From positions 53,545,350 through 53,609,349 of the forward strand of contig OZ024795.1 of the NCBI GenBank assembly GCA_964017045.1: 64,000 nucleotides of DNA, read 5' to 3'. Shown one piece after another: positions 13,601 to 42,000 of this stretch. The translations under genes and the position numbers were made by a program. The notes beneath the pieces were generated by a model, which worked only from the letters and a program-made list of their open reading frames with translations, was not told the origin of the DNA and did not search any database. This DNA is from Omphiscola glabra (Eukaryota > Mollusca > Gastropoda > Lymnaeidae). Position 1 is the first letter of the stretch. Each line of letters starts with the position of its first letter.

Positions 13601-15020
13601 CGTAGGTTAATGCTGGCTGTCAATGAGTTGGTCCGGTGACGTCATCCTCACAAGTATGCCCTGACGTCACCATCCTCTCCAAGAATGGGGTCAGGGCTGC
13701 TTGACACAGCTGCCTCTAAAACAAGTTCAGTGGTTCTCTTGTCGTGACCGCGAGCTCAGATGTACTGCCGGACGAGATCAGTGGTTCTCTTGTGACCGCG
13801 AGCCCAGATGTATTGCGCGGAGAGAGGTAGCCAGAGACCTTGGACTATCAGGGCGGCAATTTATTTTTAAAGGGAATCAAAAGTACTATTGGAATTCATT
13901 TTTAAAAAGTTGAAATGTTATCCACGGCATTGCTTTGAACAGCTTGTCACAGTGCAGAGCAATAAATGAACAGCTTGTCACAGCGCAAAGCAAGAAATGA
14001 ACAGCTTGTCACAGCGCAAAGCAAGAAATGAACAGCTTGTCACAGTGCAGAGCAAGAAATGAACAGCTTGTCACAGTGCAGAGCAAGAAATGAACAGCTT
14101 GTCACAGTGCAGAGCAAGAAATGAACAGCTTGTCACAGCGCAAAGCAAGAAATGAACAGCTTGTCACAGCGCAAAGCAAGAAATGAACAGCTTGTCACAG
14201 CGCAAAGCAAGAAATGAACAGCTTGTCACAGTGCAAAGCAAGAAATGAACATCTTGTCACAGTGCAGAGCAAGAAATGAACAGCTTGTCACAGTGCAGAG
14301 CAAGAAATGAACAGCTTGTCTCAGTGCAAAGCAAGAAATGAAACATTTGGAACATGCCTGCCTTTATTAAGATAGTGAGCGCTGCAGCACACAGTCCTAT
14401 TGACCTGAGCTGGTGCTGCAGCACACAGTCCTATCCCGGCCCTATAAAAATGTTTCAATGGCCTAAGATTTATCAAGAAACATAAAATTTGACTGCGTCT
14501 ACGGCATGGTTTTTAACCAGGGTGTGCGCCTGGGGTGGGAGAGGCGGTGTCAGGGGTGTGCGAAACCTTGAAAACTAGGTTTATTTGAATTTTTATTACC
14601 TTTATTTATTATAGCGTGGGGGCGGGACTTGAAATGGAGATGGGAGTTTGAAATCATGAGGGGTGCATCGCTACAAAAAGGTTAGGAGCCCCTGATCTAA
14701 TGCAATATGACCCACGCCGCGAAACGCCGCCATAGTGTAGACATAGAGCCGATATGATTATGATCTGAACTTGTATAAATGCGTGTAATGTGTGAGTGTA
14801 ACACGTGATTACACTGCACGAGCACACCACTAAAACATTGCTGCCAGCAGGCCGCCACAGTGGCCGTCATAACAATTGCATTGACAGTTCCTGACAAATA
14901 GATCAGTTTCTGAAAAAGAATGTTTATTTGTGGGATTATTTTACTATTCCGTTTTAATCATTTTATTTCTTTTTTCTTTAAATATGTGTTATTTAATTAC
15001 CTATATATATATATATATTA

Positions 15021-15052
<32 letters not shown>

Positions 15053-18000
15053 GGGGTTGTCGCAATGAACGGGAATCAAAGACCATCATTTTTCTACCAA
15101 AACTTGGCAGCCGCCGCTGGCCATATCTTAAAGCAGAAAACGAACTGATGCAGTGGTTAAAAAATGGGACGAAGTGCTCCGTGATCAAAAGCAAATGATG
15201 ACCACTGCTTAATTTAGCATTGTATCAAGTGCAGTGCAAACGCAGTCAAAAAGTTTCATTCCTAGTGGGGACAATTGGTGCTGTCCCATAACTCGTAAAT
15301 TTGGTTCAATTAAAGTTTATTGTAGGCCTACTTTGTTTATTAAGTCTACTGTGTTTAATGTAGGTCTAGTGTGTTTATTGTAGGTCTAGTGTGTTTATTG
15401 TAGGCCTACTGTGTTTATTGTAGGCCTACTGTGTTTATTGTAGGTCTAGTGTGTTTATTGTAGGCATACTGTGTTTATTGTTGGCCTAGTGTGTTTATTG
15501 TAGGCATACTGTGTTTATTGTTGGCCTAGTGTGTTTATTGTAGGCATACTGTGTTTATTGTAGGCCTACTGTAATAAGTAAAGAACTTGATTCACGGAAG
15601 CCGTTGTTGAGCATGAAAATATTTTCCGCCTCATTTTCACTCTCTGCCTCATTGTCGCGCTCTGCCTCATTGTGACTATCTGCTTCGTTGTCACTCCCTG
15701 TATCATTGTGACTCTCTGCCTCATTGTGACTCTGCCTCGCTGTTACTTTCTGGCTCACTGTAACTCTCTGTCTCATTGTGACTCTCTGCCTCACTGTGAC
15801 TCTCTGTCTCATTGTGACTCTCTGCCTTATTGTGACTCTCTGTCTTATTGTGACTCTCTGTCTCGTTGTGACTCTCTGTCTCATTGTGACTCTCTGTCTC
15901 ATTGTGACTCTCTGTTTCATTGTGACTCTCTTTCTCATTGTGACTCTCTGCCTCACTGTCTCTCTCTGTCTCATTGTGACTCTCTGTCTCATTGTGACTC
16001 TAAGCATCATTGTGACTCTGTCTTATACTTATTGTGACTATCAGCCTCATTGCCACTCTCGGAAAACACATATTTATGAAGCAGCAACAAAAATATTTCT
16101 ATGGGGGGCAATTTGATTGTTTAAGAAAAAAAAAAGGGGGGGGGGGCCAATTCGAAAATGAGCTGTCTAGAATTTGAAAACCAAAGGTCTACTATTTTTT
16201 AATTTGTATTTTAAAGGAGAATAGTTAAAGTCTCAATATATATAATAGGCTAAAAAATTACTTAGATTTCAATATGTGCTGCTAAAGTAAGGCTAATATG
16301 TTGGGCAAAAAATGGCTGCTTAAAATTGATGATTGATGAAAGATGAGAATCCAGAAATGCTACTTGTGCATTGCGTTATTCATGGGAAAACTTGGTAGCT
16401 AAAGATATTTCACCTGTTCTAAACGAAGTCATCAATTCAGTTCTAAAGTGTATCAATGATATTAAAGCTAATGCCAAAGCCAAATGTGAACGTCTCTTGA
16501 AACTATTTTGTGAAGAAGAAAATGCAGACTTTATTGAGACTTTTACTTCACGCTGAAGTAAGATAGCTTTCGAAAGGGAATTCCTTGTAAATATTTATGG
16601 ACTTTTAAAAATTAAGTATATGATGCATGGGGGGCATAAGAATTTTAGAAAGGTTTATGTGGGGCATGGCACAAAAAAGGTTGGGAAACACTGCTCTAAG
16701 CCGTATGTGTAATGACCCAATTATTCACCAATCGTACTGGCCAACCTTACGGCGCACAGGCACAACTGCCCCGCCCCATTAACCCAACAAGCTTGTCGAT
16801 AGGCTGTGTTCTGGCGTTGATGAGACTGGGTAGGCGGATCTTGTCCTTGTGTCAACAGCGGATGACCCAATTTTACACCACAAACTTCACAACTTGGCAT
16901 GTACCCAACACTTGCTGTGTATACAAGCTGTAGTATTATTCAATAGGAAAGCAAAATACTAGTTGGGTACGCAAAGTTTTAAAATCTAGTTTAAGCTCTA
17001 GTGTCTTTATGTGGATAGGGTCAAGAATAAACGTCGTTATCTCATTTGGCATTCCTAGAAATTAAGAAATGTTAGATCTTGGGATGTCTGCGACCTTAAA
17101 TTAGCCATCCTCACCACACCCACCCATTCATCATGACCCGGTAATTACTAATTATTTAAGGCTGTACAACTATTTTCGCTATAGGGTATGTCGATTACTA
17201 TTAATAGAACATTCGGGCATTCAGTTTGGCCAATCTCATTAAATAACGGAAAGATAATAAAACATCCGGATATTCTGTGTGGCCAACTCTAAACAGTATT
17301 GTTAGTCAGTGTATTGGTTCTAAGACAAAACTTTTTAACAACTTTATTTTACAAAAGATTTTTCTAACAAAATGCTGAAATACATTGTTATCAGCTATGT
17401 TTTACGAATACCTTGTCTAAAAATAGTCAATGCAATGTGATTTTATCGGTCTTAGAAAAGACAAACCCCAAAATTAAGATGGCAGTCTTCTCTGACCTGT
17501 ACTATCGTCCCTACCAGATTGTACGCCACTGCCTTTTTGCGGGGTATCGGTATACAAAATATAGATTACAATAGAATACAAATCATTCAAATAAAAGGAT
17601 AAAGGCCCTTTTAAAAAATATCGATACGTTCGGGTGCAGAATGTGTAGGCCTATATACTCAATACCTTGGGTCCAGAATGTGAAGCCTATATATAGACTC
17701 AATACCTTGGTACAGAATGTGTAGGCCTATATATACTCAATACCTTGGTACAGAATGTGTAGGCCTATATACTCAATACCTTGGTACAGAATGTGTAGGC
17801 CTATATAGTCTACACCTTGGGTACAGAATGTGTAGGCCTATATAGTCTACACCTTGGTACAGAATGTGTAGGCCTATATAGTCTACACCTTGGTACAGAA
17901 TGTGTTGGCCTATATACTCAATACCTTGGGTACAGAATGTGTAGGCCTATATAGTCTATACCTTGGGTGCAGAATGTGTAGGCCTATATACTCAATACCT

Positions 18001-21000
18001 TGGTACAGAATGTGTAGGCCTATATACTCAATACCTTGGGTACAGAATGTGTAGGCCTATATAGTCTATACCTTGGGTGCAGAATGTGTAGGCCTATATA
18101 CTCAATACCTTGGTACAGAATGTGTAGGTCTATATAGTCTATACCTTGGGTGCAGAATGTGTAGGCCTATATACTCAATACCTTGATACAGAATGTGTAG
18201 GCCTATATAGTCTACACCTTGGTACAGAATGTGTAGGCCTATATACTCAATACCTTGGGTACAGAATGTGTAGGCCTATATACTCAATACCTTGGGTGCA
18301 GAATGTGTAGGCCTATATAGTCTATACCTTGGGTGCAGAATGTGTAGGCCTATATACTCAATACCTTGGTACAGAATGTGTAGGTCTATATACCGGTACT
18401 CTATACCTTGTCATCACAATGCAATATTTCAAATAAATAAACAGTAATGTGTTACATTGTTCATACGGTGCCGGTCTTGTAAAGAGAAGACAACTCCACG
18501 CACTGCTAAGTTTTCTTTTTCTTTTGGGTTTTGCATTAATTATGAAAATGAAGTGAAGAATGACGTCAACTTTTTTTAAAACCATCGCAAAAAATACAAC
18601 TGAGTACTGTGACGAGAGAGAAGAGAGGGGGGGGGGGGGAGAGGGACGTGGCGAGAGAGAGAGAAGGAATGAGGGGGTGTGGCGAGAGAGAGTGATCGAC
18701 TGAATGAAGCTTTCACCATGGTATATTTAACTATAATTAGGGATTATAGAGTTAAATGGTGCCATTTTGTTTTGAGTTACAATAATCGGACTTTTGACAT
18801 AACGCCCCCCCCCCCCCCCCAAAAAAATTATTAAAAAAAAAAAAAAAAAAATCCCAACTGTCTATTAATTATGACTCCTTACAAATAGGAACGAATTCCT
18901 ATTTAATGGAACCTATAATTTTTTTAACCCTCTAATTCTAATTTCTTCTAACTCAACATACAATGGCGGCCTGCCGACCCTTTTCAAAACAAGCCTGCTC
19001 TAGTCTACAGACAGCATTTTTTGAAATACCAGCGCGCGATAAAGTAACCTACATTCTTAGGGGAATGCCAAGTTTAACCCAAAGAAATAATGCCACAACA
19101 TAAAAATACGCCCAGCACCGCAAGGCAAGCTTAGTCCCTTGTAGCTGTTAAAACTAGGTCAGACAAAAGGGGGAGGTCACCGCTATGTGCCGTTTTGCCG
19201 TCAAGTTTACGGCCCGCTATGACTATGACTTCACCTCGTTTCTGAGACTCGGGATGTAGGTTGTGTCTCCGTGCGCCCTGCTACAGGACAACACAGATTG
19301 GAAATAAGCGATCGTGGGGTAAACGATAAACACAACACGCAGCGGGCGCGTACACACTGATTTCAAGTTAAGCACCGACAAAGTGGGTCAGCGAAATACC
19401 CCCCCCCCCCGGTAGTTTTTAAAAATTGTGTTTTAATTTCGAATTATTACGCAATGCGACTTGATAGCATATTCCCTTCCTAAAAGACTAAAGTTAAAGA
19501 GAGATATTGACTAACACTAACGTACCTAAAGTATTCATAGACTTCTCCGAGAAATATTTCATGCAACATTTCACTAAACAATATTGACCACAACATTTCA
19601 TTATTTTTAAAAAACAACAGATCTTTAAGAAAGAAAGAAAAAAGCATCAACGAGATTATATTCTTTTAATACTAACATCTTTGTTTTCCCAGGACAAAGA
19701 AGCGGCCCCACACCCCTCCCATCCCCCAGGGTCTGGTTGGCTTCTTATGTCTAGCTTTTAGCGCTGGAACTTTAAAAATTCAAACATAAATCTTAAACTT
19801 TAAACAAACAAGGGATTGAATTTTTTTAAAGACGTTTTCCCAAATGGTTTCTTTTTGGCAATAAATGTATTAATTGTTTTAATGCCTCCCCACCTTGTCT
19901 CGTATATTATTTAATGGCGCGTTGGCCGTGGCCAAATACATTACAGTGTTGGGACACAAAACAAGTTCCAAAAAAAAATCCTGGCTAAAGAAAGCAGGAA
20001 AGAGACAAGAAAATCTTCCACAAAATAGAAACCACTCCTCGGCCAGGACTGATCCAACCTGACTTATTTCCAACAACTTGGAATTGGGTTACCGGGTCAC
20101 GCCAGACAATATTGCACAACTACTGTAAAACTCAGACTACTTGGGGGCTCGAAGGTATTTTAAAAAATAATTCAGCATTGCACTTATTGGGGGAAGAAAA
20201 AAAAAAGGAGGGGGGGGGTCTTTTTTTAAAAACTTGGATTAGTCTCATCCATATTTCAGTTGTCATGAGCTGTGCGTCCAGAGCGTGTCTTATTCTGTCA
20301 TAAGTTGGTCATATTTACTATGAAAAGAAATCCTCATTTTTAGAACTTTACACAGAAATTTTTTTTTAAAATCTCAATAAAGGATAATAATACTGATAAT
20401 AAGCCAACCCGAGAAACTGAAAGATGCTCCACTAACTTCACTAAGCAGATATTTTGAATGGTGTTCAAATGATAAGAGATAAATGGAAACATACGCTCTG
20501 TACCATGGCCCCATACAAATCACCATACAATTATGAATGTCGTATCTGAACTAGCACAAGAGTCCATTCATTCCTAATTTGTTTTTGTATTCAGTCAGAG
20601 GTTACTGACTGCCAACTGGAGTTTATGACAAAATTAACTCTTGGGGCGTGCTATTTACATTGTGTCATTAAATGGTTTACAGAGTTCAGCCCACAGCAGC
20701 ACACAGGAGCACACAATTTATTTATATTTTCAAGAAAATTCGTCTATTTAGGCTGGCTTGGGGAACTGGGACAACCGTTCGGGGAACTGGGACAAATGTG
20801 AGGGGGAACAGTGACAAATGTTTGGGGAACACTATAATTTCCCCCAGGGAACAGTGACAACTGTGACGGTCAAATTAATGATCACGTTTTCATTTCAATG
20901 TTTAGAAGTCCTTGATTCTTGACTTCTGAGTTATTGTATTAGCCATTGTCAACAATTCTATCAAATCTCAGACATGTGGGCCATCACACCGAATTCTATC

Positions 21001-24000
21001 AATTCTCTGCTATTGGAGCCATGGTCACCAATCTTGTCAAGTCTCTGCTGTTGGAGCCAGGATCGCCTACACTCGTCTAATGGAGCCATGGCCCCCAATT
21101 CTGTCCACAGTTCTGCAAAATTGCCTTGTCCCCGGGTCAGATCGATCCAGCCCTGACTAAACCCGTAGCCAGAAGCCGGTGACCCACTTTGTGCCCACTA
21201 TTTATAGTTCGACCCAGGGAATGGCGGTTCATAGCTTTCAAATATCCTTTTAAGTTACGAGATACATTTCAAGGAAAATCCAAAAGTCCAGATCATGTAA
21301 AGTCCCCTATGGCTATAATCAATTATTTATAATTTATAATGGTCTAAATGGTAGCTACTCTTCCTTTAGTAGGGGAAAAGGGGGAGAAAAAAAGGGGGGG
21401 GGGTGGGATTTTGTCACTTTGGGAAATTATTTTTAAAAAAAAAAACCGACTCACAAATATTCCAACTTCTGGTGAGCTGAATGAAATATGGTGAATCGCA
21501 AAACGGCTGACAATATTTAAATCTTTAGTTAAAATTTAGTTGTTTTTGTATACACCCTCATAAAGATAACTACCATTTACCAACGGAGCCTAAATTATGG
21601 TATGGGTCCCATTCCCATAGATATCACTAGAGATGCGAGTTTTTTTGTGTTTTTGTGGGTTTTTTTGGGGGGGAGGGGTATAAATTTAAAAAAAAAATAA
21701 ATAAGTTGTTTGTTGTCCATTGTGTAGTAATGAAGGATTTTTTGTCTTCTTTCAGTGTACTTTTCATCAAATACAAAAAGTCGTTCCAGTTTCCTCCCAC
21801 CTTTGACATTTAAAGTAATTTAAAAGCTGTTGATCTAAAAGTACTGATATTCTAAACAATACATACATACTTATGTTGTACATATATTTAAATATCAACG
21901 TGTATATCAATAATCTCGACGTAATTTATAACAAGTAGCCACTACGAGAGATTATGGTACGTCTAAAGGGTGGACTTACAGTTAAAAGGTTAATAATTAA
22001 AGAATTGTACGACACAAATAGCAACACAAACAACGACACATTACGAGATTACGTGTGACCCCTATAAACGAGATTACAACGTGTGACCCCAATAAACGAG
22101 ATTACAACGCGTGACCCCTATAAACGAGATTACAACGTGTGACCCCTATAAACGAGATTACAACGTGTGACCCCTATAAACGAGATTACAACGTGTGACC
22201 CCCATGAACAAGATTACAACGTGTGACCCCTATAAACGAGATTACAACGTGTGACCCCCATGAACAAGATTACAACGAGTGACCCCCATGAACGAGATTA
22301 CAACGAGTGACCCCTATGAACGAGATTACAACGAGTGACCACCATAAACGAGATTACGAGTGACCCCCATGAACGAGATTACAACGAGTGACATTTATGA
22401 ACGAGATTACAACGAGTGACCTTTATGAACGAGATTACAACGAGTGACCCCTATGAACGAGATTACAACGAGTGACCCCCATGAACGAGATTACGAGTGA
22501 CCCCCCATGAACGAGATTACAACGAGTGACCCACGTGAACGAGATTGCCACGAGAACAAATATTGTAAGGGAGGGCAATGGAACAATGTATCAATGGCCA
22601 CTTGGTTAGTGTTGTAGGGGAGGGCAATGGAACAATGTATCAATGGCCACTTGGTTAGTGTTGTAGGGGAGGGCAATGGAACAATGTATCAATGGCCACT
22701 TGGTTAGTGTTGTAGGGGAGGGCAATGGAACAATGTATCAATGGCCACTTGGTTAGTGTTGTAGGGGAGGGCAATGGAACAATGTATCAATGGCCACTTG
22801 GTTAGTGCAGATAAGGTCACGTGAACCGTTCAGGGTACAACCTCGCTCGATGACATTCAGCCGATATGGCATCTGCACCAATCTACTACATGACATGACT
22901 TGCGATCTCCCGGTGTTGTGACAGATATTGGTATTTGTACATTGTCGAGTCAAATACCAGCTAGTTATCCTTTTGTCAAGTGTGCAGTAGTTTGATTCCA
23001 TGTTATGGTCATAGACAGATTTGCCTGTGTCTGCAGATGTATTTGTGTTGATAAGGTCATGTCATAAACAGACAGATTTGCCTGTGTCTGCAGATGTCTT
23101 TGTGTTGATAAGGTCATGTCATAAACAGACAGATTTGCCTGTGTCTGCAGATGTCTTTGTGTTGATAAGGTCATGTCAAAGACATATTTGCCTTTGTCTG
23201 CAGATGTTTTTGTGTTGATAAGGTCGTCATAAACAGATTTGCCTGTGTCTGCAGATGTCTTTGTGTTGATAAGGTAATGTCATAAACAGATTTGCCTGTG
23301 TCTGCAGATGTCTTTGTGTTGATAAGGTCATATCATAGACAGATTTGCGTGTGTCTACAGATGTGTCTTTATGTAGATAAACCATGACAGATCAAACAGT
23401 TTCAAAATTTAAAAACTATTATTGGTGTACAGACTCCACTCCCACACCCACCTATTATTGGTGTACAGAATCCATTCCTCACCCCCACCTATTATTGGTG
23501 TACAGACTCCACCCCCACCTATTATTGGTGTACAGACTCCGCCCCCACCTATTATTGGTGTACAGACTCCACCCCCAGCCCCACCTATTATTGGTGTACA
23601 GACTCCGCCCCCACCTATTATTGGTGTACGGACTCCATTCCCCACCCCCACCTATTATTGGTGTACAGACTCCGCCCCCACCTATTATTGGTGTACAGAC
23701 TCCGCCCCCACCTATTATTGGTGTACGGACTCCACCCCCACCCCCACCTATTATTGGTGTACGGACTCCATTCCCCACCCCCACCTATTATTGGTGTACA
23801 GACTCCATTCCCCACCCCCACCTATTATTGGTGTACAGACTCCGCCCCCACCTATTATTGGTGTACAGACTCCGCCCCCACCTATTATTGGTGTACAGAC
23901 TCCACCCCCACCCCCACCTATTATTGGTGTACGGACTCCATTCCCACCCCCACCTATTATTGGTGTACAGACTCCGCCCCCACCTATTATTGGTGTACAG

Positions 24001-27000
24001 ACTCCGCCCCCACCTATTATTGGTGTACGGACTCCACCCCCACCTATTATTGGTGTACGGACTCCATTCCCCACCCCCACCTATTATTGGTGTACAGACT
24101 CCGCCCCCACCTATTATTGGTGTACAGACTCCATTCCCCACCTATTCCATAGAGCTATTGAATGCGCAAAAGTCCGGGTGGGGGGCACTGCCACTTTCAC
24201 CCCCCTAACGTTACTCGGAGCACACAGACATGGACCTGCATTAAAACCAAGTGTGAACTTGCATGGGGGGGGGGGGGAGGGGAGGGGTGGCGCACTACCA
24301 CTCCCCCCCCTAACGTTACTCGGGGCACAGAGACATGCACCTGCATTAAAACCAAGAGTGTACCCGCATGGGGGGGAGAGGGGGTGCGTTCAGGCTAAAC
24401 AACCAGAAACCAACAAAAGGTCATAAGAGGACATGGTTACAGCTACTTTATTACTATGACTATGACTAAGCAGCCGTTTCGTCCACGCTGCCAGCACATT
24501 AGTGCTAGGTGCCACTACTTATTAAAGGACGGCTAGGACTCATGGCACGAAGTTAATCAGATTACGGCCGTCAACGTATCCACCCCCGACTCCCTTAGTA
24601 GTTCAGGCGGTATACGTGCCTAGCAAAGTGCGATGCACATCAAGGGCAGGACATGAACATTGGAACCCACGTATAGTGGATGGAGGCAAGGCTACCACAC
24701 CTTGGAAAATTTCCCAAGGTCTTGGGAATTCGCGACCACCATTGGGATCTGGGGAATAATTTTGAAAATTGGGCAAAACCTTGGGAAATCTTAACAGGGG
24801 TAAGATATTTTTTTTTTTTACATATTTCGAAAAAGGCAAATATGTGATAAAAATTAAATTGACAATAAAGCAAGATAATTTTAGAAATAAACAATCGAAA
24901 AAATTAATTTCTTTGATTCTTTTCTGCATAACAAATGGTTTTCCGTTTTAAAACCAATAAGAAATCTTCTGAAATTTAAGTTAATATTGACAATTATTGT
25001 AAAGTATTAAAAGGTTAAAAGGTTAATAATTAAAGAATTTTTTTTTAAAACTTATGTTGAAAATTTACAAGATTACATTCACGTGTTGAGTGCTGATTGA
25101 ATTGACAGTGTACACCTTAGCATAGGACAGTCTCAACAATAAATTAACTGAACATAAATCTTAAAGTCTCAAAGGAAGTCAATATAGCTTATAATTAATA
25201 TTGAATTTGTGGGGGATGGTAGGCTCTGAAACTTTACTTTATCATTAGACATCAATTAGCAACCATACGAAGAACAGGACAAGCCAAAGAGTAAAAGAGC
25301 AGGTATGATTCAATAAAACTGGAAAAGTCAAAGAAATAAGTTAAATGGTATAATCACTTGTACCAGAATATCAACTGAATGTACCAGAATATCAACTGAA
25401 TGTACCAGAATATCAACGGAATGTACCAGAATATCAACTGAATGTACCAGAATATCAATTGAATGAGCTGGATGATCAGCGGAGGAGCTTCTGAATTTCT
25501 GCTGAAAATTTAACTACATCTTATAAAGAATATTCCCCAATATTGGCACTTATTAAGTGATCTTAAAGACAAATTTTCTCTATTATGTTATTTCATAAAG
25601 CACTTGACAGTTTTACCACATTCCTCCGCATGTGTAGTAAGAATCTTCTCACAGATTAATTGCATTCAAACAAAAATTACTAATTCTTTAAAAATGACTC
25701 AGTTAGAGATAGAATCCTTGCAAGAAAGCATATAAATAGATGTACTAACTGGATCCCAACTGAAACTTTAATAAACAGAGATGGCTCTGTTCACAAAAAA
25801 TATAAGAAAAGGCTTTGTATTCAAGAAGAAATAAATGAAACTCTCCACCTGTCTGTTTAGTTCATAGTAAATCTTTATAAGCTCAAAAAAAATCATTATT
25901 GAAATGCATTAATAAAGAGTTGAGATTGTTTCAAATTTATTACATAGGACAAATACTGTATTGTTTATATTGTATTAAATATATTTCTTGAACATTGGTG
26001 AGACAAAATTAATGAAACTCCAAATGTAAGCCAAGATTGCCATACAAAAAATGTTATGTTTTCAATCAAGAATCCCATAGTAAAATTGGATGAATTTCAA
26101 TTACTTCTACTATGTGTGTTTGATTAGATTTATAAAAAATTCTTTGTTGACTAACTATGATGCAATTGTAAAAAATCCACCCTAATTTTCACCAATTGGG
26201 AAAAATATTTGTGGATTGACATACAGGTAATTAAAATATCCATTGTTGGATTATAACTGAAAAGTTCATTTAAACAGTATTTTTTTTTTTAAAGTATAAT
26301 TATAATGTAAATTGACAAAAATTTTTTTTTAAACTTATTGTTTTCATAATAAAATCAATCCATTTTAACTACAATTATTATTATTAAATTCTGCTTGATA
26401 GCTTTCCAAACCCCATTACTATTCAACAGACTTACAATGAGATTAGCCTTGTGAGCTTTGTTTCAAAGTGAATTCTTTTACCAATGTATTGTAGATGATA
26501 TTTTTACCAGAGAATTTGGAGGTCATATTTAGTAGCCCATCTCCAGTGTGTTTTGATATTTTACATTATAAATTAATATAAATTATATATTATTTGCAAA
26601 AAACAAATTGTTTATTTCTTTTATGTGATAAACATTTTTTTTAAAATGTCTTATTACATAAATTTCATTCAGTTACTGTAACATCTGTTTCAGAGGCATT
26701 AATTCAAGCTATTATTGCGTTACTTACATAGAAAATCCCTTTTAAAAAAACCTCTATATTTTGATGATCTTGGGAATTCTTGGGATTTTTTTTATCAAAT
26801 GTGGGGAATTTTAAAAGAAGTGAGTGGCAGCCCTGGATGGGGGCAAAGGCACAGGGCTAAACTTTCAATACGACATAGATGTGGAAGTTAGCATCAATAA
26901 GATGAGGTAGTAAAATCAATAAGATATGGGGAAGTTAACATCAATAAGATATGGGGAAGTTAACATCAATAAAATTTGGGGAAATTAACATCAATAAGTT

Positions 27001-30000
27001 AAGGGTAAGTTAACATCAATAAGATATGGGGAGTTAACATCACAAAGATATGGTGATGTTAGCGTCAATAAGATATGGGGAAGTTAACATCACAAAGATA
27101 TGGTGATGTTAACACCACAAAGCTAAAGGGAAGTTAGCATCAATAAAATATAGAGTAGTTAACATCAATAAGATATTTTGAAGTTAGCACCAATAAGTTA
27201 TTTTGAATTTAACATCAATAAGATATGGTGAAGCTAGCATCAATAAGATATGAGGAAGTTAACATCACAAAGATATGGGGAAGTTAACATCAAAAAGATA
27301 TGGGGAAGTTAACATCAATAAGATATGGGGAAGTTAACATCACAAAGATATGGGGAAGTTAACATCAATAAGATATGGTGATGTTAACATCAAAAAGGTA
27401 TGGTGTAGTAATGTACTCAAAACTTTTCTTAGACTATTCTTACCATTCTTACCTGGACTTGGAACTCCAGAGTTTGAAACTGTGTTAGGAAGATTTCCTC
27501 CTCCTAAAGAGTCTATAGAATGCCTCCTGTCATCCTCTTCCTCCTCCTGGAGGTCACCATCAGACTTCCATTGGGCTAAAAATAGAAGACAACACCATTT
27601 GACTAAGCATGTTTAATCCATAAATTTCATGCAGTTGACCCTCTTTATCACTTTTACATGATTTCATTATACTATTACTTCCATGATTTCATTATAATCT
27701 TACTTCTATGATTTCATTATACTCTTACTTCCATGATTTCATTATACTCTTACTTACATGATTTCATTATACTCTTACTTACATGATTTCATTATAATCT
27801 TACTTCTATGATTTCATTATACTCTTACTTACATGATTTCATTTAATCTTACTTCTAAGATTTCATTATACTCTTACTTACATGATTTCATTATACTCTT
27901 ACTTCCATGATTTCATTATACTCTTACTTCCATGATTTCATTATACTCTTACTTCCATGATCAAATTACACTTTTGCTTCCATGATTACATTAGTTATAC
28001 TTTTATCCATGATTACACCCAAGTCATGAGTTTTTCAATAAAAAAATAGGTGGCATTTCTTGCATAGCCATTATATTTCTATGACACCAAAGGTCATTTA
28101 TATCTAAAATTGTATTCTAATTTGAAGCAACCCCACATCGGGCACCGAGAACCATTAAAACTTACCTTATTCTAGAGAGACATACAATGAGAACCACTGA
28201 GACTAACTTACCTTGTTCTAGAGAGACGTACAATGAGAACCACTGAGACTAACTTACCTTATTCTAGAGAGACATACAATGAGAACCACTGAGACTAACT
28301 TACCTTATTCTAGAGAGACATACAATGAGAACCACTGAGACTAACTTACCTTGTTCTAGAGTGGCGTACAATGAGAACCACTGAGACTAACTGACCTTGT
28401 TCTAGAGTGGCGTACAATGAGAACCACTGAGACTAACTTACCTTGTTCTAGAGTGGCGTACAATGAGAACCACTGAGACTAACTGACCTTGTTCTAGAGT
28501 GGCGTACAATGAGAACCACTGAGACTAACTTACCTTGTTCTAGAGTGGCGTACAATGAGAACCACTGAGACTAACTTACCTTGTTCTAGAGTGGCGTACA
28601 ATGAGAACCACTGAGACTAACTGACCTTGTTCTAGAGTGGCGTACAATGAGAACCACTGAGACTAACTTACCTTGTTCTAGAGAGACATACAATGAGAAC
28701 CACTTAGACTAACTGACCTTGTTCTAGAGTGGCGTACAATGAGAACCACTGAGACTAACTGACCTTGTTCTAGAGTGGCGTACAATGAGAACCACTGAGA
28801 CTAACTTACCTTGTTCTAGAGTGGCGTACAATGAGAACCACTGAGACTAACTTACCTTGTTCTAGAGTGGCATACAATGAGAACCACTGAGACTAACTTA
28901 CCTTGTTCTAGAGTGGCGTACAATGAGAACCACTGAGACTAACTTACCTTGTTCTAGAGTGGCGTACAATGAGAACCACTGAGACTAACTGACCTTGTTC
29001 TAGAGTGGCGTACAATGAGAACCAATGAGACTAACTTACCTTGTTCTAGAGTGGCGCACAATGAGAACCACTGAGACTAACTTACCTTGTTCTATAGTGG
29101 CGTACAATGAGAACCACTGAGACTAACTTACCTTGTTCTAGAGTGGCGTACAATGAGAACCAATGAGACTAACTTACCTTGTTCTAGAGTGGCGTACAAT
29201 GAGAACCACTGAGACTAACTGACCTTGTTCTAGAGTGGCGTACAATGAGAACCACTGAGACTAACTTACCTTGTTCTAGAGTGGCGTACAATGAGAACCA
29301 CTGAGACTAACTGACCTTGTTCTAGAGTGGCGTACAATGAGAACCAATTAGACTAACTTACCTTGTTCTAGAGTGGCGTACAATGAGAACCACTGAGACT
29401 AACTGACCTTGTTCTAGAGTGGCGTACAATGAGAACCACTGAGACTAACTTACCTTGTTCTAGAGTGGCGTATGTGTTGTACTCGGAGTGGGCGTGGTTT
29501 CTCTCTGCCTGCGTCACCGATTCATTTGGTATGACAACTAGAATAAAAGGGAAGTCATCACAATCACACACATTATCATTAATACAGAACTAACATACAA
29601 TACATACACATTGATTTAAACAGCAGAACAAGGTATGTGGAATATTGAAATAGATTTATAGGACAATAAAAGGGCTAATTGTTACTCTTGGTGCCTCATT
29701 TGCAAAACCCTGATTCCGATAGGGTCAAAATCCTGGTTCCGATAGGGTCAAAACCCAGGTTAGGGATACATTTAGGGTTCATATTAGGTTTAGGGATACA
29801 TTTAGGAAATTTTAAAATTATTTTTTAACGTTTTATTCTTAATTTTACGGGTCGCGGCAACCAAGATGACGGCCATGGTAAAAAAACGGGGCACTATCTC
29901 GACCGAATTACCAATAAAAGAAAACTTTTCAGCCAAGTGCCTTCCTCGGCAGACAGGACAAACGAAGAAATAACAATAAATAGAAAGTTCAAAAACTTCA

Positions 30001-33000
30001 GCGTTCGCCATTAATTCATTCAGGCTGCACCTATTGGTACCTGGGTACAAGAATTGAGAGGTTGGGATTAAAAAACGATTTAAAATATTATTGTTAAGTT
30101 TGTACGACCAAATGAGGTATCAAATGAAAGATAATTGAATGTACTATACGTTTGTTATCTTAATTCTTCAGTTTTACTAAAATAAACTACCAAAAATGAC
30201 ATCAGAATAGCATTGAGTCTAATGGTACCCGAGTGCGAATGGCGGCGCTGCGTGTCTGGGTCCATTTTGACTAATGCTATTCGGATGTCATTTGTAGTAG
30301 TTTTTTTTTCCGGTAGACATTCTGGAGTCGAGTTTTCTCATGAGCCACGACCAACTGAATATCTCTTATTAGTAACTGCCTACGGTAACGACTGGAGTCA
30401 CGACCAACTGAATATCTCTTATTAGTAACTGCCTACGGTAACGATTGTTCGTGTTTTTTTAAAATGCGTTTTGTACCGGTAACCTTAATATAAAGTTACG
30501 ATTTCAAACCAAAAAATAAGAATTTATCCTTAAAGAATGTTTTGTATTTCCTGAATTTCTAGGAAGTTGTCTCCCATCAATTTTACTTTCAGTATTGCTA
30601 TCTCTAATCAAGTGCTAAGAGAGGGGTGTGCAGAGGGGGGGGGATTTTTTCTTATATGGCGGGGCTGCATTTTCCACCAACTGCAGAGTTTGTTTTTTCA
30701 TGTGATGGGGCCAGCAAAAATATTGACCCGTACCAGGCGACACCATCTGTTAATACTTACATAGACCAACTTTTGATGAAGACTGCAGTTATACCAGTCC
30801 TATCTTACATAGACCTACTTTTGATGAAGACTGCAGTTATACCAGTCCTATCTTACATAGACCAACTTTTGATGAAGACTGCAGTTATCTCATTATGTAT
30901 AGCGACTTTTTTGGTCATTTAAAGGTTAACATTTAGTATTGATTGGCCTTAAACATTTAGTATTGATTGGTCTTAAACATTTAGTATTGATTGGTCTTAA
31001 ACATTTAGTATTGATTGGTCTTAAACATTTAGTATTGATTGGTCTTAAACATTTAGTATTGATTGGTCTTAAACATTTAGTATTGATTGGTCTTAAACAT
31101 TTAGTATTGATTGGTCTTAAACATTTAGTATTGATTGGTCTTAAACATTTAGTATTGATTGGTCTTAAACATTTAGTATTGATTGGTCTTAAACATTTAG
31201 TATTGATTGGTCTTAAACATTTAGTATTGATTGGTCTTAAACATTTAGTATTGATTGGTCTTAAACATTTAGTATTGATTGGTCTTAAACATTTAGTATT
31301 GATTGGTCTTAAACATTTAGAATTGATTGGTCTTAAACATTTAGTATTGATTGGTCTTAAACATTTAGTATTGATTGGTCTTAAACATTTAGTATTGATT
31401 GGTCTTAAACATTTAGTATTGATTGGTCTTAAACATTTAGAATTGATTGGTCTTAAACATTTAGTATTGATTGGTCTTAAACATTTAGTATTGATTGGTC
31501 TTAAACATTTAGTATTGATTGGTCTTAAACATTTAGTATTGATTGGTCTTAAACATTTAGTATTGATTGGTCTTAAACATTTAGTATTGATTGGTCTTAA
31601 ACATTTAGTATTGATTGGTCTTAAACATTTAGTATTGATTGGTCTTAAACATTTAGTATTGATTGGTCTTAAAGTTCGATTTAAAAATAGTGTGTGTGTG
31701 TTTTAAAATACGACTTTGTTGCTTAAAATATTATTTTGCGAACAATTGCAATTTATTTATTTTATTTTTTTGGGGGGGGGGGGGGGTGTTTTACAGAAAA
31801 CCAAATTGACCAGGTAGGCAAGTATTTTGGTAAATATCGTCCCTCGGCCGCTAAATTGTTTTGCGGGTGGACTCAGGTTCGGGCACAACACTGTCGGCTA
31901 CTAAGGTGGGGTTCTCACCCGGGCCTGCGATTCTCCGTGAGTCTCCGTTTATGGTTACAGTGAAAGTAGAGTTTATGGTTACAGTGGAAGTAGAGTTTAT
32001 GGTTACAGTGGAAGTAGAGTTTATGGTTACAGTGGAAGCATAGTTTATGGTTGCAGTGGAAGTAGAGTTTATGGTTACAGTGGAAGTAGAGTTTATGGTT
32101 ACAGTGGAAGTAGAGTTTATGGTTACAGTGGAAGTAGAGTTTATGGTTACAGTGGAAGTAGAGACTCACCTGAAATCGAATGGCATGACGAAGACTGCAT
32201 GTGTGGCGAGGGGGACTGAAGGTGGGGCGACGGGGATTGCAGGTGGGTTGGTATCAACTTGTCAACACTCTCGGATTTGATCCACAGACCAGTCTCGTGA
32301 CTTTGCTTGATGGCTTGCCAGGACAACCCTGGACGCAATAGAAAGCATGACATTATTATTTCAGTGCACATTTTGATCTCTTATTTCTATCTGGACCCTT
32401 TATAGCACCCGAACCCTTGTTTTCACCTGAACCCTTGTTAGCACCCAAACCCTTGTTTTCACATGAACCTTTGTTTTCACCCAAACCCTATTCACCCGAA
32501 TCCTTGTTTTCACCTGACCCACTGTTTTCACCTGAACCCTTGATTTCACCTGAACCCTTGTTTTCACCTGTACCCTTGTTACCACCTGAATCCTTATTTC
32601 CATGTGAACCCTTGTTTTCACCTGAACCCTTGTTTTCACCTGAACCCTCGTTTTCACCCGAACCCTTTTTTTCCATCTGAACCCTTGTTTTCACCTGAAC
32701 CCTGAAAGACACCACACACAACAATGCTTAAATTCCTGGTGCTGACTCCAAAGACACAACACACGACAATGCTTCAATTCCTGGTGCTGACTCCAAAGAC
32801 ACCACACACGACAATGCTTAAATTCCTGGTGCTGACTCCAAAGACACCACACACAACAATGCTTAAATTCCTGGTGCTGACTCCAAAGACACCACACACA
32901 ACAATGCTTAAATTCCTGGTGCTGACTCCAAAGACACCACACACAACAATGCTTAAATTCCTGGTGCTGACTCCAAAGACACCACACACGACAATGCTTA

Positions 33001-36000
33001 AATTCCTGGTGCTGACTCCAAAGACACCACACACAACAATGCTTAAATTCCTGGTGCTGACTCCAAAGACACAACACACGACAATGCTTCAATTCCTGGT
33101 GCTGACTCCAAAGACACAACACACGCCAATGCTTCAATTCCTGGTGCTGACTCCAAAGACACCACACACGACAATGCTTAAATTCCTGGTGCTGACTCCA
33201 AAGACACAACACACGACAATGCTTCAATTCCTGGTGCTGACTCCAAAGACACCACTCACGACAATGCTTCAATTCCTGGTGCTGACTCCAAAGACACCAC
33301 GCACGACAATGCTTCAATTCCTAATGTGTAAGTCCAAAAAAGGAAGAAGGCGGTACCGTGGCTTTACAAAATGTGTAATACCATACCAAGTTACCCCCCC
33401 CCCTCACCTATTTACCATATCATATCTTGTCAACCAAGCTCCGCCCTTTTAAAAAACATCCTTTATATTAACTTTGCTTTTCCTCGTGTTTCTTTTTGGG
33501 GTTGTGTCAAAATCTTCGGAAGGCCAATTGACCCACTTCCCGTCAACCTATCGACCTGAAACTTGGCCCATAGACTCGATGCCGATGACAACACATCCTA
33601 TCAGATTTTCAGCCCCAAACCCCAAAAAAACAGTTTAAACGTTACCAGATGCCAATGATTTCACGAAATAAAATTCCAGACAACTGCGCTAAATGAGATT
33701 CTTAAAAAACCGCAAGTCCGTTATGTTCATAATATTTTCTTTTGCTTTACAGAAAAAGTTGGTTTAATTAATATGTGGTGTCAAAGCGGGTAAGACGTTA
33801 GAATAGTAATGTAGTTGTTAAATTATTTATATTCTCTTATTAGTAAGATAATGTATCCGTAAATAGGGGGGGGGGGGCTGCGTGCAAGCCTTGTTACACT
33901 ATAACAGAGTAGAATTATTACTACAGCAAAGGTTGGCAGCAGACATTCAAATAGAGCATTCCAAGTTGTTGCTTGTTGGCGACACAATTATTAGACATAC
34001 CTTGACCTTATAATACGTCATATCGCGACACAAAAATTCAGTTTTCGTTTGTAAAATAAGGAGTTAAGTTAAAATGAAACGGAACATACCATCATAATGA
34101 TAATATACAAGAGAAGGACAACATACAAGATAAGGACAAAATATAAGATAAGGACAACATATAAGATAAGGACAATATACAAGATAAGGACAATATACAA
34201 GATAAGGACAAGATATAAGATAAGGACAAGATATAAGATAAGGACAATATATAAGATAAGGACAATATATAAGATAAGGACAATATATAAGATAAGGACA
34301 ATATATAAGATAAGGACAATATATAAGATAAGGACAATATATAAGATACGGACAACATATAAGATTAGGACAATATATAAGATAAGGACAATATATAAGA
34401 TAAGGATAATATACAAGATAAGGACAATGTATAAGATAAGGACAATATATAAGATAAGGACAATATATAAGATAAGGACATTATATATGAGTTGCAAATA
34501 CGAAATTTATGGCGACTCATCACTTGTCGTGAAAATGTTTCAATTTTTGTCCCTTCTAAATATGCTATTAGAGAAAAATAATAACGCTATAGTTCCAAGA
34601 TAAATGGAACTGATTTGACGATGAGCAAACTAACGTGTCAAGACACACATAAGGTGACCAAACTAACATGTCAAGACACACATAAGACGACCAAACTAAC
34701 TTGTCAAGACACACATAAGACGACCAAACTAACTTGTCAAGACACACATAAGACGACCAAACTAACTTGTCAAGACACACATAAGACGACCAAACTAACT
34801 TGTCAAGACACACATAAGACGACCAAACTAACTTGTCAAGGAACACATAAGACGACCAAACTAACGTGTCAAGACACACATAAGACGACCAAACTAACTT
34901 GTCAAGACACACATAAGACGACCAAACTAACGTGTCAAGACATACATAAGACGGCCAAACTAACGTGGCAAGACACACACAGGGTGACCAACTAACTTGT
35001 CAAGACACAAATAAGACGACCAAACTAACGTGTCAAGACACACATAAGACGACCAAACTAACTTGTCAAGACACACATAAGACGACCAAACTAACTTGTC
35101 AAGACACACATAAGACGACCAAACTAACATGTCAAGACACACATAAGACGAACAAACTAACGTGTCAAGACACACATAAGACGACCAAACTAACTTGTCA
35201 AGACACACATAAGACGACCAAACTAACGTGGCAAGACACACACAGGGCGACCAACTAACTTGTCAAGACACAAATAAGACGACCAAACTAACGTGTCAAG
35301 ACACACATAAGACGACCAAACTAACTTGTCAAGACACACATAAAACGACCAACTAACGTGTCAAAACACACACAGGGCGACCAAACTAACTTGTCAAGAC
35401 ACACATAAGACGACCAAACTAACGTGTCAAGACACACATAAGACGACCAAACTAACTTGTCAAGAAACACACAGGGCGACCAAACTAACTTGTCAAGACA
35501 CACATAAGACGACCAAACTAACTTGTCAAGAAACATACAGGGCGACCAAATTAACGTAGCAAGACACACATAAGACGACCAAACTAACGTGGCAAAACAC
35601 ACACAAGGCGACCAAACTAACGTGTAAGACAAACACAAGGCGACCAAATTAACGTGTCAAGACACACATAAGACGGCCAAACTAACTGTCAAAACACACA
35701 TAAGACGACCAAACTAACGTGTCAAGACAACCATAAGACGACCAAACTAACGTGTCAAGACACACACAAGGCGACCAAATTAACGTGTCAAGACACACAT
35801 AAGACGGCCAAACTAACGTGGCAAGACACACATAAGGCGACCAAACTAATGTGGTAAGACACACATTTGGGGAAAGCTCTTTTTACTTAATCCTTTATTT
35901 TAACTTCACTTTAGTTTCTGGGTTTGTGGCAAAATATTCGGCAAGCTAATTGACCCACTCTTCGGCAAGCTAATCAACCCACTTCCCGCCAACCTATCGA

Positions 36001-39000
36001 GTTGAAACATGGCACATAGACTCTTTGCTGACGACAACAAATTCTATCGAATTTTCAACCCTTACCCCCCACCCACAAAAATCAATTTTTCAAGGGAAAG
36101 TTGAGTGAAATGTGACTTGTTCCACGCGTGCGTGGTTTGGTGTGGAGATTAATTGTGCAGCTGTTGCTATGTCTTCTGTATTTGAGTATTCAGTAAAAAA
36201 TTAAATGTCTGTTTGAAGTGGAAAATGAAGTAAATATGAAATGTGTTTTGGCCAGAGTTTACCCATTTTCTTAACTGCTTCTTAATACATGATAAGTCAG
36301 GTACAATGGCATCAATGCTAAAAAAAATGCATATAAAGGATTTAGACGAACTACGTTTTTTCAAGGGGTTGTTTTGATAATGTCTTCAAAGAAGGCATTG
36401 TGTTGTCTGCAGCAAAAGAATACGATATAGAGTTTGTCATTTCTAAGACCGGAAAACAGCACATCGCATTACGTTACTATTTTTAGACAATGTTGTGTAA
36501 ATCACAGCTCCTAAACAATGTATTTCCGCACACACACACACACATATACATATATATAGCAATAACAATTTGTTTGCAAAATCTTTCGTTACATTAAGTT
36601 GTAAACACGTTTTTGTCTAGGTTAAGGCTCACATTAACGTAGAAGTCCCCAACAGCTGTTGAGCGATTGGCCAAACGACATACCAGGATTTTTGTTTAGT
36701 ACTATCTTAATAAGAATGACCAGACTTCACGCCCGGCTGTTCTATTAATAGATTTTCGCCGTTAAATGACGAACCCTATTGGTTGGTGAAAATGGCTGAT
36801 GTAATATCTTCCTAAATCTCAACAGATATGACAAGCTGCAAATTGCCTTATACAAACAGCAACTGTTAATTATTTGTATTTTTTTAATAGATTATAACTG
36901 TTATGAAAATCTGTGATACATTGTTTTACATTGAATAAAGTTTTATGGGTACTTACTTTGGTCATTGACACCTCCACCTATCCGGGCGTCCATGACTACC
37001 ATCTCAGAGTTGTTGTCTGCTTCCTGTTCTCCGGGAGACGCCATCCGATGGGAGTGCGCCATGACGGGAGCACGTCGGCCCTGCTCTGACTGGTGGTCGG
37101 CTAGCCCAGCATGATCGCCATCCCGCGGAGAGCCCATGCGGCTGGACCGGACACCGTACTGGACAGCCGTGTCCTCTCCGGCAATGGGATGCCGAGTTGA
37201 TGACATGCTTTGGTGTGCGCCCTGCGGTCTACCGTAGACCGGGACCGGTCCCGGTCGGTCCCACGAGGGCGCCTCCGTCTGTTCCGGCGAAATCCTTCTA
37301 CTTCCTGAGCTGGACATGGCCAAATCCGTGGGCCTCTGCTCAGAGAGAGATGACGCGGAGCCACTGGACAACCTCGAATCCCGCCTGTCCCTTGCCCGCT
37401 GTGGCTGGGGCGATGGAGACATGTTGGAGGGGGCCGGGGAGAAGACGTGATGTTGTGGGTGCATGGACGGGGACTCGAGGCTCCTACGTTCAACACTGCT
37501 GTTGCTGCCGACGCTGTTCGTCCTGCTGGGGACCCGGTGGGCGGCTTGTGGCTGTTCATGGCGTAGAACACTGGGTGGACTTACGGTCGGCTCTCTGTCT
37601 GGTCTCACTTCTCTTGTCTGACCAGTGTCTGGAGGTCGGTTAGATGGACGGTCCATGCTGCTCAAATTCTCTTCTTTCGACCATGCTGCACACAAGAAAA
37701 ATACCTTTGTTATTTAAAACTCGATATTTTTGCGCATCACTAACTCTTACATTGCCTTACAATCTAATAAAGATATACACAACCGTGTATAGATAATAGA
37801 CATAAAAACGTAATGTATTGACGGAAATGTTACTTATAGCCAAATTAAGTTTGTTACAGATTTATCAAAGTAACAAAATAAACGCCACTAATAGGAATAT
37901 GCAAGACACACCACGGTAGTATTGACAGACACTACTGATACAATAGACACACCCCGGTAGTATAGACAGACACTACTGATACAATAGACACACCTCGGTG
38001 GTGTAGACAGACACTACTGATACAATAACACCCGAAAAGTATAGAAAGAAATCATCGATTTTTTGACTCACGATAAACATCAAATTGAACTTAGTCTTAC
38101 GTCAGCTTGTTTTTTTTAAATGACATCACACATCACCCAGCGCCGGGCCTTACATCACCCAGCGCCGGACCTTACATCACACAGCGCCGGACCTTACATC
38201 ACACATCACCCAGCGCCGGGCCTTACATCACCCAGCGCCGGACCTTACATCACACAGCGCCGGACCTTACATCACACATCACCCAGCGCCGGGCCTTACA
38301 TCACCCAGCGCCGGACCTTACATCAAACATCACCCAGCGCCGGGCCTTACATCACCCAGCGCCGGACCTTACATCACACATCACACAGCGCCGGGCCTTA
38401 CATCACACAGCGCCGGACCTTACATCACACATCACCCAGCGCCGGGCCTTACATCACACAGCGCCGGGCCTTACATCACACATCACACAGCGCCGGACCT
38501 TACATCACACATCACACAGCGCCGGGCCTTACATCACACATCACACAGCGCCGGACCTTACATCACACATCACACAGCGCCGGACCTTACATCACACATC
38601 ACCCAGCGCCGGGCCTTACATCACACATCACACAGCGCCGGGCCTTACATCACACAGCGCCGGACCTTACATCACACATCACACAGCGCCGGATCTTACA
38701 TAACACATCACCCAGCGCCGGACCTTACATAACACATCACCCAGCGCCGGACCTTACATCACACAGCGCCGGGCCTTACATAACACAGCGCCGGACCTTA
38801 CATAACACAGCGCCGGGCCTTACATCACACAGCGCCGGGCCTTACATAACACAGCGCCGGGCCTTACATCACACAGCGCCGGGCCTTACATCACACATCA
38901 CCCAGCACCGGGCCTTTGATGCACTCCATTGCTGGTATACTACATTTCAGTCAGTTTTTCATGTTTATATTTGTCGACCCGTTGCATTGGCAAATTAAAC

Positions 39001-42000
39001 GTTGTGAAGCTGTCCGGGGACGCCGAACCCAAAGGGTGGCCCTGGACCCAGATTCTTGACATTTTCATGACATAAAATTATATATAGAATAAGACCTTTA
39101 TTTAATAGCCACATTCCTTTCTCCCTTACCACGCCAGTGCACGTGTTCCCAAACAACACGCCAAACGTAGTAGCACACAGAAACAGAACGTGTTCAAGGA
39201 ATGCTACGACACAGATAAGTATCGGGAACTGTTGAGTGGATCAATCGTCAAGTCATAATGCAAGTCTGAAGAGTCGAACTTATTTAGGACATACACCGAT
39301 GTGCACCTAAGAACAGCCCACATGGCTCACAATGGCTGGGTACCGTCCATACAGCCCCACGGGCTCACAATGGTTAGGTACCGTCCGTACAGCCCACGGG
39401 GCTCACAATGGTTAGGTACCGTCCGTACAGCCCACGGGGCTCACAATGGTTAGGTACCGTCCGTACAGCCCACGGGGCTCACAATGGTTAGGTACCGTCC
39501 GTACAGCCCACGGGGCTCACAATGGTTAGGTACCGTCCGTACAGCCCACATGGCTCACAATGGTTAGGTACCGTCCCTACAGCCCACAGGGCTCACAATG
39601 GTTAGGTACCGTCCATACAGCCCACAGGGCTCACAATGGTTAGGTACCGCCCCTACAGCCCACGGGGCTCACAATGGTTAGGTATCGTCCGTACAGCCCC
39701 ACGGGGCTCACAATGGTTGAGGACAGTCCCTACAGCCCACGAGGCTCACGATGGTTAGGTACCGTCCGTACAGCCCCACATGGCTCACAATGGTTGGGTA
39801 TCGTCCGTACAGCCCCACGGGGCTCACAATGGTTGGGTACCGTCCGTACAGCCCCACGGGGCTTACAATGGTTAAGTGCCATCCATAAAGTATGTCACGC
39901 TTTTTTTTGGCAACACACTACACTCTCCCTCCCCGTCACACATTTAAACCCCCCCCCCCCCCAACTATTCAATGTATAAAAGTGACATCTTTTGTCATAA
40001 TACATTTATCACAACAGAAAGTTTAACATCACATTGTCTTTTTCAGTTTTTTATTGTATGGTAAAAAATAAGCACATTTTGATGTAACACACGATCTCCC
40101 CCAACCCCATATTTACAAACTGTCCCTCTTTCTAAGATCCATCCATCCTAACCCCCCTTCCATTTTTCCTGAGGTGGTGGTACTTTATGGACGGTCCCTT
40201 GACAAACATGGTGCCCTAATATTGTTATGCACCGAATGCAAAGTTCGAACATTGCCTCCCAATGTTTATACGATATATTTACTGGTTTACTTTTCAGCCA
40301 CTCATTAAGTTTTGTCAGCAATTAAGCAATTGCTCATCACTGTGAAATAGAACAGTACATCATGTGTGCCCTCATACTGCAGTATTTGGTTTGTGTACTC
40401 ACATTGTAGTACTTGGTTTGTGTACTCACATTGTAGTACTTGGTTTGTGTCTGCCCTTTGATTTACTGTCACCAACAGTAAACATCTTTCAATGGCCACC
40501 TCCAGGTCACCAACAGTAAACGTCTTTCAATGGCCACCCCCAGGTCACCAACAGTAAACATCTTTCAATGGCCACCCCCAGTAAACATCTTTCAATGGCC
40601 ACCCCCAGGTCACCAACAGTAAACATCTTTCAATGGCCGCCCTTTGGTTGACTGGCGTCCTAGTTGACCGCTTGTTTTCTTTTACTCCGCCCCCACCCTC
40701 ACCCCACTATTTCTATTACTATTAGTAGACCTGCACTACATACGCCCCCCACCCTCATCCCACTATTTCTATTACTATTAGTAGACCTGCACTACATTCG
40801 GCCCCACCTCACCCCACTATTTCTATTACTATTAGTAGACCTGCACTACATACGGCCCCCACCCTCATCCCACTATTTCTATTACTATTAGTAGACCTGC
40901 ACTACATACGGCCCGCGAAGTAACGAAATACTCTTTATTACTATTTTTTAATAGCTTTCCCCCCTGTCCTATTATCTTCGGCCTGCACACGTTTTCCATA
41001 AAGTATTTCGGCCTACACAAGATTTTCGTAAAGTATAACGGCCTACACAAGTTTTTCATAAAGTATTTCGGCCTTCACAAGTTTTTCATAAAGTATAACG
41101 GCCTACACATGTTTTTCATCAAGTATTACGGCCTACACAAGTTTTCCATAAAGTATTATACGGCCTACACAAGTTTTTCATAAAGTATAACGGCCTACAC
41201 AAGTTTTCCATAAAGTATTACGGCATACACAAGTTTTCCATAAAGTATTACGTCCTACACAAGTTTTTCATAAAGTATAACGGCCTACACAAGTTTTCCA
41301 TAAAGTATTACGGCCCATCTTACATTTTGAGTTGTGCAGGCCCGCTATTAGGGTTTCTTATATTACTTATATCCCGGGTTTTTTGCTTATCCCGGAAAAA
41401 CGGGAATGAATGAAGTTTGGCTCATAAAGGGGTCAAGTTAATGTAATTAAAACTAGCCTATAAACTGAATTCTGAAACTGTCCCTGGGCGCCAGACTAGT
41501 TAGGGGCGCCAAAATGTGCTTTGGTATAATTTTATTGATGAAAATAATGGGTTTGAGGGTTGAAAAAAAGAAAAGTAGGCGCTTTAAAATGAATCTTGTC
41601 CCAGGGCGCCAAACACTCTAGCTACGCCTCTGAATAATTTTTCTAACAACCTGTAACACGGGGTTATTTTCGAATAAAGAACTATTACCTATGTTAATAC
41701 TTGTACCTCTATATGTATAGTATGTCTTACTATCTCTATAAGTATAGTATGTCTTACTATCTCTATATGTATAATGTCTTACTATCTCTATATGTATTTA
41801 TGTCTTACTATCTATATATGTATAGTATGTCTTACTATCTCTATATGTATAGTATGTCTTACTATCTCTATATGTATAGTATGTCTTACCATCTCTATAT
41901 GTATAATGTCTTACCATCTCTATATGTATAGTAAGTCTTACTATCTCTATATGTATTTTATGTCTTACTATCTCTATATGTATAGTATGACTTACTATCT

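Follow-up and report, generated by a model that had tools for sequence, protein, structure and literature searches.

How is an exon spliced in frame when its 5' splice site is followed by a long row of near-identical copies, and do such copies serve the gene or are they simply endured? The window, that is, the whole stretch of 64,000 nucleotides of Omphiscola glabra DNA analysed here, poses this question at exon 4 of a nuclear receptor gene, where the initial annotation had seen either a natural tolerance test for donor choice or a regulatory decoy array. The former view holds up. With a probability of roughly 0.8, we regard the array as a minisatellite of the 'mirage' type, which arose by duplication across the exon-intron junction and is tolerated through the choice of the exon-proximal donor.

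Anatomy of the exon 4 array

28159..29472, minus strand: 46-bp minisatellite across the exon 4/intron 4 junction, with 29 donors at 29454-46k, k=0..28 (TRF and direct reading)
29454..29537, minus strand: receptor exon 4 of 84 nt, a multiple of three, true donor after 29454, AAG/GTAAGT (tblastn and a joined model without stop)
27453..27575, minus strand: exon 5, joined to exon 4 in the orthologue (P0121 comparison)

Direct reading of the minus strand yields 29 donors spaced always by exactly 46 bp (29454, 29408 ... 28166), namely the true donor of exon 4 and 28 copies, all with the sequence AAG/GTAAGT or AAG/GTCAGT, and TRF delimits the array at 28159-29472 with a period of 46, 28.6 copies, 96% matches and 0% indels. 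The consensus unit consists of TACGCCACTCTAGAACAAG (19 exon nt) followed by gtaagttagtctcagtggttctcattg (27 intron nt). Every one of the 29 units carries one of the two donor variants, GTAAGT in 20 and GTCAGT in 9, and 19 of the 28 copies (true donor left out) keep GTAAGT. The initial annotation had thus described the array accurately in giving it about 28 copies after the exon 4 donor, a unit made of the last 19 exon and the first 27 intron bases, and near-identical GTAAGT or GTCAGT donors. The 19-nt exon tail has 29 matches in the 64-kb window at up to 4 mismatches, all inside the array and none elsewhere, and a 29-nt piece of the unit has 21 exact matches in the 745-Mb, 37-contig genome, all 21 of them likewise inside the exon 4 array.

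Mean pairwise identity among the first 28 units is 0.96, and in the last unit (28166) the intron half is mostly different. Change is greatest in the distal units 26-29, of which 26, 27 and 29 read TAT GTC TCT CTA GAA TAA G in the exon half, but three of the distal changes recur in unit 18, so that drift is not confined to the far end. Unit variants follow a non-periodic order along the array. Among units 2-28, 9 of the 46 columns vary (6 of 19 in the exon part and 3 of 27 in the intron part), with only position +3 varying inside the donor motif. Selection on the donor motif of the copies is not evident from this column variation, a weak test that says little either way.

A hairpin that would hide the copies or seed the duplication was considered and rejected: the fold of the unit (-7.5 kcal/mol) has a z of -0.47, with 57 of 200 shuffles equally good, and comparison with shuffles gave z values of -0.49 for a GTCAGT unit, 1.36 for a far-end unit and 0.33 for three units together.

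Identity of the gene and of exon 4

2993..46179, minus strand: nuclear receptor gene, coding exons 1-9 in the window (P0121 matches, zf-C4 profile)
46179-46128, 37685-36957, 32328-32170, 29537-29454, 27575-27453, minus strand: receptor exons 1-5
10019-9913, 9355-9205, 7297-7149, 4651-2993, minus strand: receptor exons 6-9

The closest full-length relative of the receptor is the Lymnaea stagnalis protein P0121 (88% identity over a model lacking exon 3), which has a ligand-binding domain and matches the minus strand one exon after another, that is, exons 1-9 in the window and three outside it; these exons 10-12 lie beyond the window, and the last one reaches the P0121 C terminus. The joined piece of exons 6-8, the DNA-binding exons, matches PF00105 (zf-C4) at 1.4e-28. 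At exon 4 itself, tblastn places P0121 residues 321-352 on 29544-29449 with 87.5% identity, and P0121 reads TYATLEQ/AQWKSDG across the join of exons 4 and 5, which corresponds to the first donor in this predicted protein. The comparison bears out the earlier assignments of nuclear receptor and of exon number 4. It also speaks to the check that had been set for the locus, namely whether 29,454-29,537 is truly an exon with its 3' end at 29454: judged at the protein level from P0121, this appears to be the case.

Biomphalaria and Aplysia proteins retain the exon-4 region in diverged form, with tails reading TTLEQ and TALEQ, respectively, and the more distant relative P0128 (39% identity) is without the LEQ tail. 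The exon half of the consensus unit corresponds to a real coding exon, and units 26, 27 and 29 would not encode YATLEQ, TTLEQ or TALEQ; hence the exon is the source of the copies rather than their product.

Exon 3 of the receptor contains a coding 21-bp repeat of the SPSPHMQ type (32193-32247, minus strand), present in two copies as compared with three in L. stagnalis P0121.

Consequences of donor choice

29368..29370, minus strand: in-frame TAG that exon 4 would contain with donors 3 to 29 (joined model)

The outcome of each of the 29 donors was read from exons 1-9 joined by script. The reading frame stays open with the first donor only: with donor 2, translation would end at a stop 13 nt inside exon 5, with each of donors 3-29 it would meet the TAG given above, and all 28 alternatives are truncating. 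It had been claimed that only the exon-proximal donor keeps the frame. This stands insofar as the 28 others truncate, but not as arithmetic, since donors 4, 7, 10 and so on are in frame (46 x 3 = 138); moreover, the stop, formerly placed near 29,366, begins at 29370 (29370-29368). Skipping of exon 4 keeps the frame in the joined model, and the exon of 84 nt is indeed symmetric, as had been proposed.

Further donor arrays in the receptor gene and in FERRY3

7149..7297, minus strand: receptor exon 8, donor TCT/GTAAGT after 7149 (100% identity to P0121 residues 478-527)
7008..7164, minus strand: 39-bp array across the exon 8 donor, with 4 donors (7149, 7110, 7071, 7032), all in frame with exon 9
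Region L060, 9678-9811: receptor exon 10 donor, 67-bp unit x 2.0, exon tail and intron start copied together
49077..57196, plus strand: FERRY complex subunit 3 (C12orf4) homologue, 12 coding exons (PF10154 matches under the family cut-off; L. stagnalis P0241)
53845..54887, plus strand: 46-bp array across the FERRY3 exon 9 donor (53858), with 22 intact AAG/GTAGGC at 46-bp spacing, 1 true and 21 copies, the 23rd dead
51218..51498, plus strand: 41-bp array (x 6.9) from the FERRY3 exon 5 donor (51220, TGT/GTGAGT), with 5 more GT-bearing copies in register and a sixth out of register

Four more donors, two in the receptor gene and two in its neighbour FERRY3, are found in the same situation. The exon 8 donors would add 0, 13, 26 or 39 residues, and P0121 continues EGPPS/NLSSSDS, which fits the first donor without extension. 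The two-copy 67-bp duplication at exon 10 looks like an early case; its second copy has TTTTATTCTTTAG upstream and GTAACA downstream of it, so that it might represent a new exon. For FERRY3, the best full-length relative is L. stagnalis P0241 (92% identity), and the joined model agrees with it in 539 of 550 residues. All copy positions tested in this gene are truncating (22 at exon 9 and 6 at exon 5), and the most changed units of the exon 9 array are again those at the far end (18-23). P0121 and P0241, as predicted proteins of a related species, fit first-donor use in all five arrays (receptor exons 4, 8 and 10; FERRY3 exons 5 and 9). With the two genes pooled, arrays contain 5 of the 22 donors and none of the 22 acceptors, the last receptor acceptor being judged from exon and array positions.

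Minisatellites of many unrelated units make up about 39% of the window and half of the receptor intron sequence, and region L059 in receptor intron 9 is likewise minisatellite-dense. A contig of 2,200,263 bases is given for both P0121 and P0241, so that the two genes are probably neighbours in L. stagnalis, too.

Arrays at exon junctions elsewhere in the genome

Independently of these two genes, myosin-head exons were surveyed in 20 regions (155 kb) chosen around profile matches, and the count took those 72 of the 81 matches that lie inside these stretches. Their 144 edges are profile-match ends and thus putative splice sites; after 10 at profile ends had been dropped (5 donors, 5 acceptors), 67 donor and 67 acceptor edges were left, not all of which are independent, as regions L039-L041 are possibly close paralogues. 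Arrays include 4 of the 67 donor edges (6%, 95% interval 1.7-14.6%) and 2 of the 67 acceptor edges, two further acceptor edges at 2 nt from an array being left uncounted. Random points outside matches in the same regions would lead one to expect about 9.4 and 9.3, respectively. Junctions are hence partly cleared of arrays rather than enriched in them, and it follows that tolerance is partial. Five of the nine remaining matches were inspected and have no array at the match edges.

Reading by eye of the six myosin cases revealed that exon end and splice signal were copied together, that some copies lack the signal, and that the inner copies in region L053 have mostly lost GTAAGT. The nine donor arrays (unit lengths modulo 3: 1,0,1,2,1,1,1,2,2) give no sign of frame keeping, although the test is weak, as a single in-frame array among the nine has a P(<=1) of 0.14 if one third are expected. 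Donors and acceptors lie in arrays in 9 of 89 versus 2 of 89 cases (Fisher P 0.057); this pool includes the exon 4 finding itself, and we do not claim a donor excess.

We considered, and rejected, a general rule by which arrays cluster at splice sites. Of the 17 exon edges that the receptor gene has in the window (9 donors, 8 acceptors), 12 have an array within 100 bp, as compared with 6.6 expected (P 0.0024; P 0.22 at 60 bp and 0.058 at 30 bp), but this signal is not repeated in the myosin regions (donors 11/67 versus 13.3 expected, acceptors 9/67 versus 12.9).

In regions L045 and L046 (G000:C2:7913775-7917853), five consecutive matches fall on one and the same myosin-head stretch, as mutually exclusive exons would give.

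Probable origin and tolerance of the array

The mirage reading draws on the anatomy of the array, the identity of the exon, the exon-proximal joining in the orthologue, the stop that awaits all 28 alternatives and the recurrence in other genes. A tandem duplication over the exon 4/intron 4 junction would have occurred in a minisatellite-rich genome, and the array would then have expanded and turned over into the intron. Growth from a junction duplication fits with a consensus unit that equals the exon and with far-end units being the most changed at exon 4 as well as at FERRY3 exon 9. The exon would be recognised as a unit, so that among near-identical donors the one nearest to the exon's acceptor pairs with it, as in minigenes, and all 28 copies would leave with the intron. 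Transcripts slipping to a copy would acquire a premature stop and presumably be degraded.

Experimental grounds for such a choice are found in PMC9225289: when two 5' splice sites of equal strength competed at a distance of 52 nt in transfected minigenes, with flanking introns of 365 nt, only the upstream one was used. Introns 3 and 4 of the receptor measure 2632 and 1878 nt and are in the exon-definition range (above about 250 nt for the introns on either side); taken together with the minigene result, exon definition offers a natural reason why the minimal exon would be made. The intron upstream of FERRY3 exon 9 is shorter than that (114 nt), so this exon is not clearly exon-defined on its upstream side. 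It counts against our explanation that about 60% of the human events in the same study preferred downstream sites before strength filtering. First-donor joining is, furthermore, deduced from protein predictions in related species, and these predictions may themselves rest on gene models.

We consider it unlikely that the copies act instead as a regulatory decoy, that is, that the 28 copies bind U1 snRNP and compete with the true donor, thereby setting exon 4 inclusion or the amount of productive mRNA, with array length as the dial. The calculated U1 duplex energy is -10.6 kcal/mol for GTAAGT versus -6.5 kcal/mol for GTCAGT, the former being kept by 19 of the 28 copies, and both the premature stops and the in-frame skip would suit such a switch. 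However, a like layout occurs at donors of unrelated genes and also at acceptors, junctions are depleted of arrays, the copies bear no sign of selection (in weak tests), the unit folds no better than its shuffles, and the exon-4 stretch is included in the L. stagnalis protein and, diverged, in those of Biomphalaria and Aplysia. A single locus is also an implausible global sink for U1. The decoy, U1 sequestration and exon-skipping reading of the initial annotation thus finds no support.

It is far less probable still that the copies are in use, with distal donors giving longer exons or isoforms. The four exon 8 donors, all in frame, would permit this, but at exon 4 every one of the 28 copies truncates, and P0121 is without extensions of exons 4 and 8. 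Equally improbable, in our judgement, is an assembly artefact or a collapsed or expanded repeat. Arrays are difficult to assemble and a single assembly is the basis here, so that the exact copy number at exon 4 is unproven; the non-periodic order of the unit variants, the similar arrays elsewhere with unrelated units, and the two-copy cases, which are independent of long-array assembly, nonetheless argue for the structure being real.

Accepting the array as a tolerated mirage, it is tempting, if decidedly tentative, to go further and to propose that donor rows beside coding exons form a standing genome-wide class, harmless through strict exon-proximal choice, in which a fraction of transcripts, set by array length, would slip into premature-stop products; this fraction would be heritable and perhaps somatically unstable. 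If this were true, the genome would constitute a ready natural experiment on how the spliceosome chooses among many equal donors, a choice for which minigenes with two sites are the usual test system. Rows of 2, 4, 6-7, 22 and 29 similar donors stand beside conserved exons in one snail genome, with frame-keeping as well as frame-breaking units; given this range of length and frame, ordinary long-read RNA can test both the exon-proximity rule and the leak rate.

Comparison with known systems

Repeats at or near splice junctions have been described in several settings. Human duplicated genes have internal tandem repeats at exon-intron boundaries, with units of about 30 bp on average, and splicing can change (PMC2812944). 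They share with the snail arrays the position of a minisatellite at the boundary, but they were picked for paralogue variation and novel introns and have about 4 units on average, and the accessible part of that report describes no long intact donor row beside a conserved exon. Minisatellites within an intron are known from earthworm metallothionein (PMC12783039), and an intronic minisatellite in C. elegans has been linked to alternative splicing (PMC4039745). For snail haemocyanin introns, the accessible text of PMC7931591 gave no match for 'repeat', and our search of the PMC literature, outside of which many journals lie, found no paper on mirages in molluscs.

The exon-centric proximity rule of PMC9225289 shares with the snail loci donors of equal strength about 50 nt apart and long flanking introns, with the exon-proximal donor being chosen in minigenes; it differs in that two sites compete there, whereas the snail presents rows of 2 to 29 sites in its genomic DNA.

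The closest parallel is provided by amphioxus, in whose globin genes minisatellite-like duplications of intron-exon boundaries were reported under the name 'mirages', taken from earlier Adh work (PMC3087553). They affect Adh3 and the globins BflGb6 and BflGb9, and a later report (PMC3902484) adds TnC as well as similar imperfect repeats in PGBD5; either the donor or the acceptor side is involved. Units measure 150-160 bp in the globins and 10-72 bp in Adh3; the two haplotypes of BflGb6 have 6 units and 3 units, respectively, and BflGb9 has one duplicate (PMC3087553). Data for Adh3 and the authors' own RT-PCR suggest that regular splicing is undisturbed, and intron gain from mirages was proposed (PMC3087553). 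The exon 4 array has the anatomical features of a mirage that can be tested, in that (i) a tandem unit spans the exon-intron boundary and (ii) the splice signal is repeated along with the units. Regular splicing may be undisturbed here too, going by the first-donor use that the predicted proteins P0121 and P0241 indicate. The snail case differs in belonging to a mollusc, in having 29 donors in one array and in the presence of five such arrays at donors of two genes that are neighbours. The kind itself is thus known from amphioxus (PMC3087553), and what is new here is a mirage in a mollusc, as far as the literature search shows, together with the length of the row and its recurrence. Mirages, whose range had been that of the cephalochordates, would thereby be widened from lancelets to a mollusc whose nearest full-length relatives are L. 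stagnalis proteins, a point of interest for models that derive new introns or exons from duplications of this kind.
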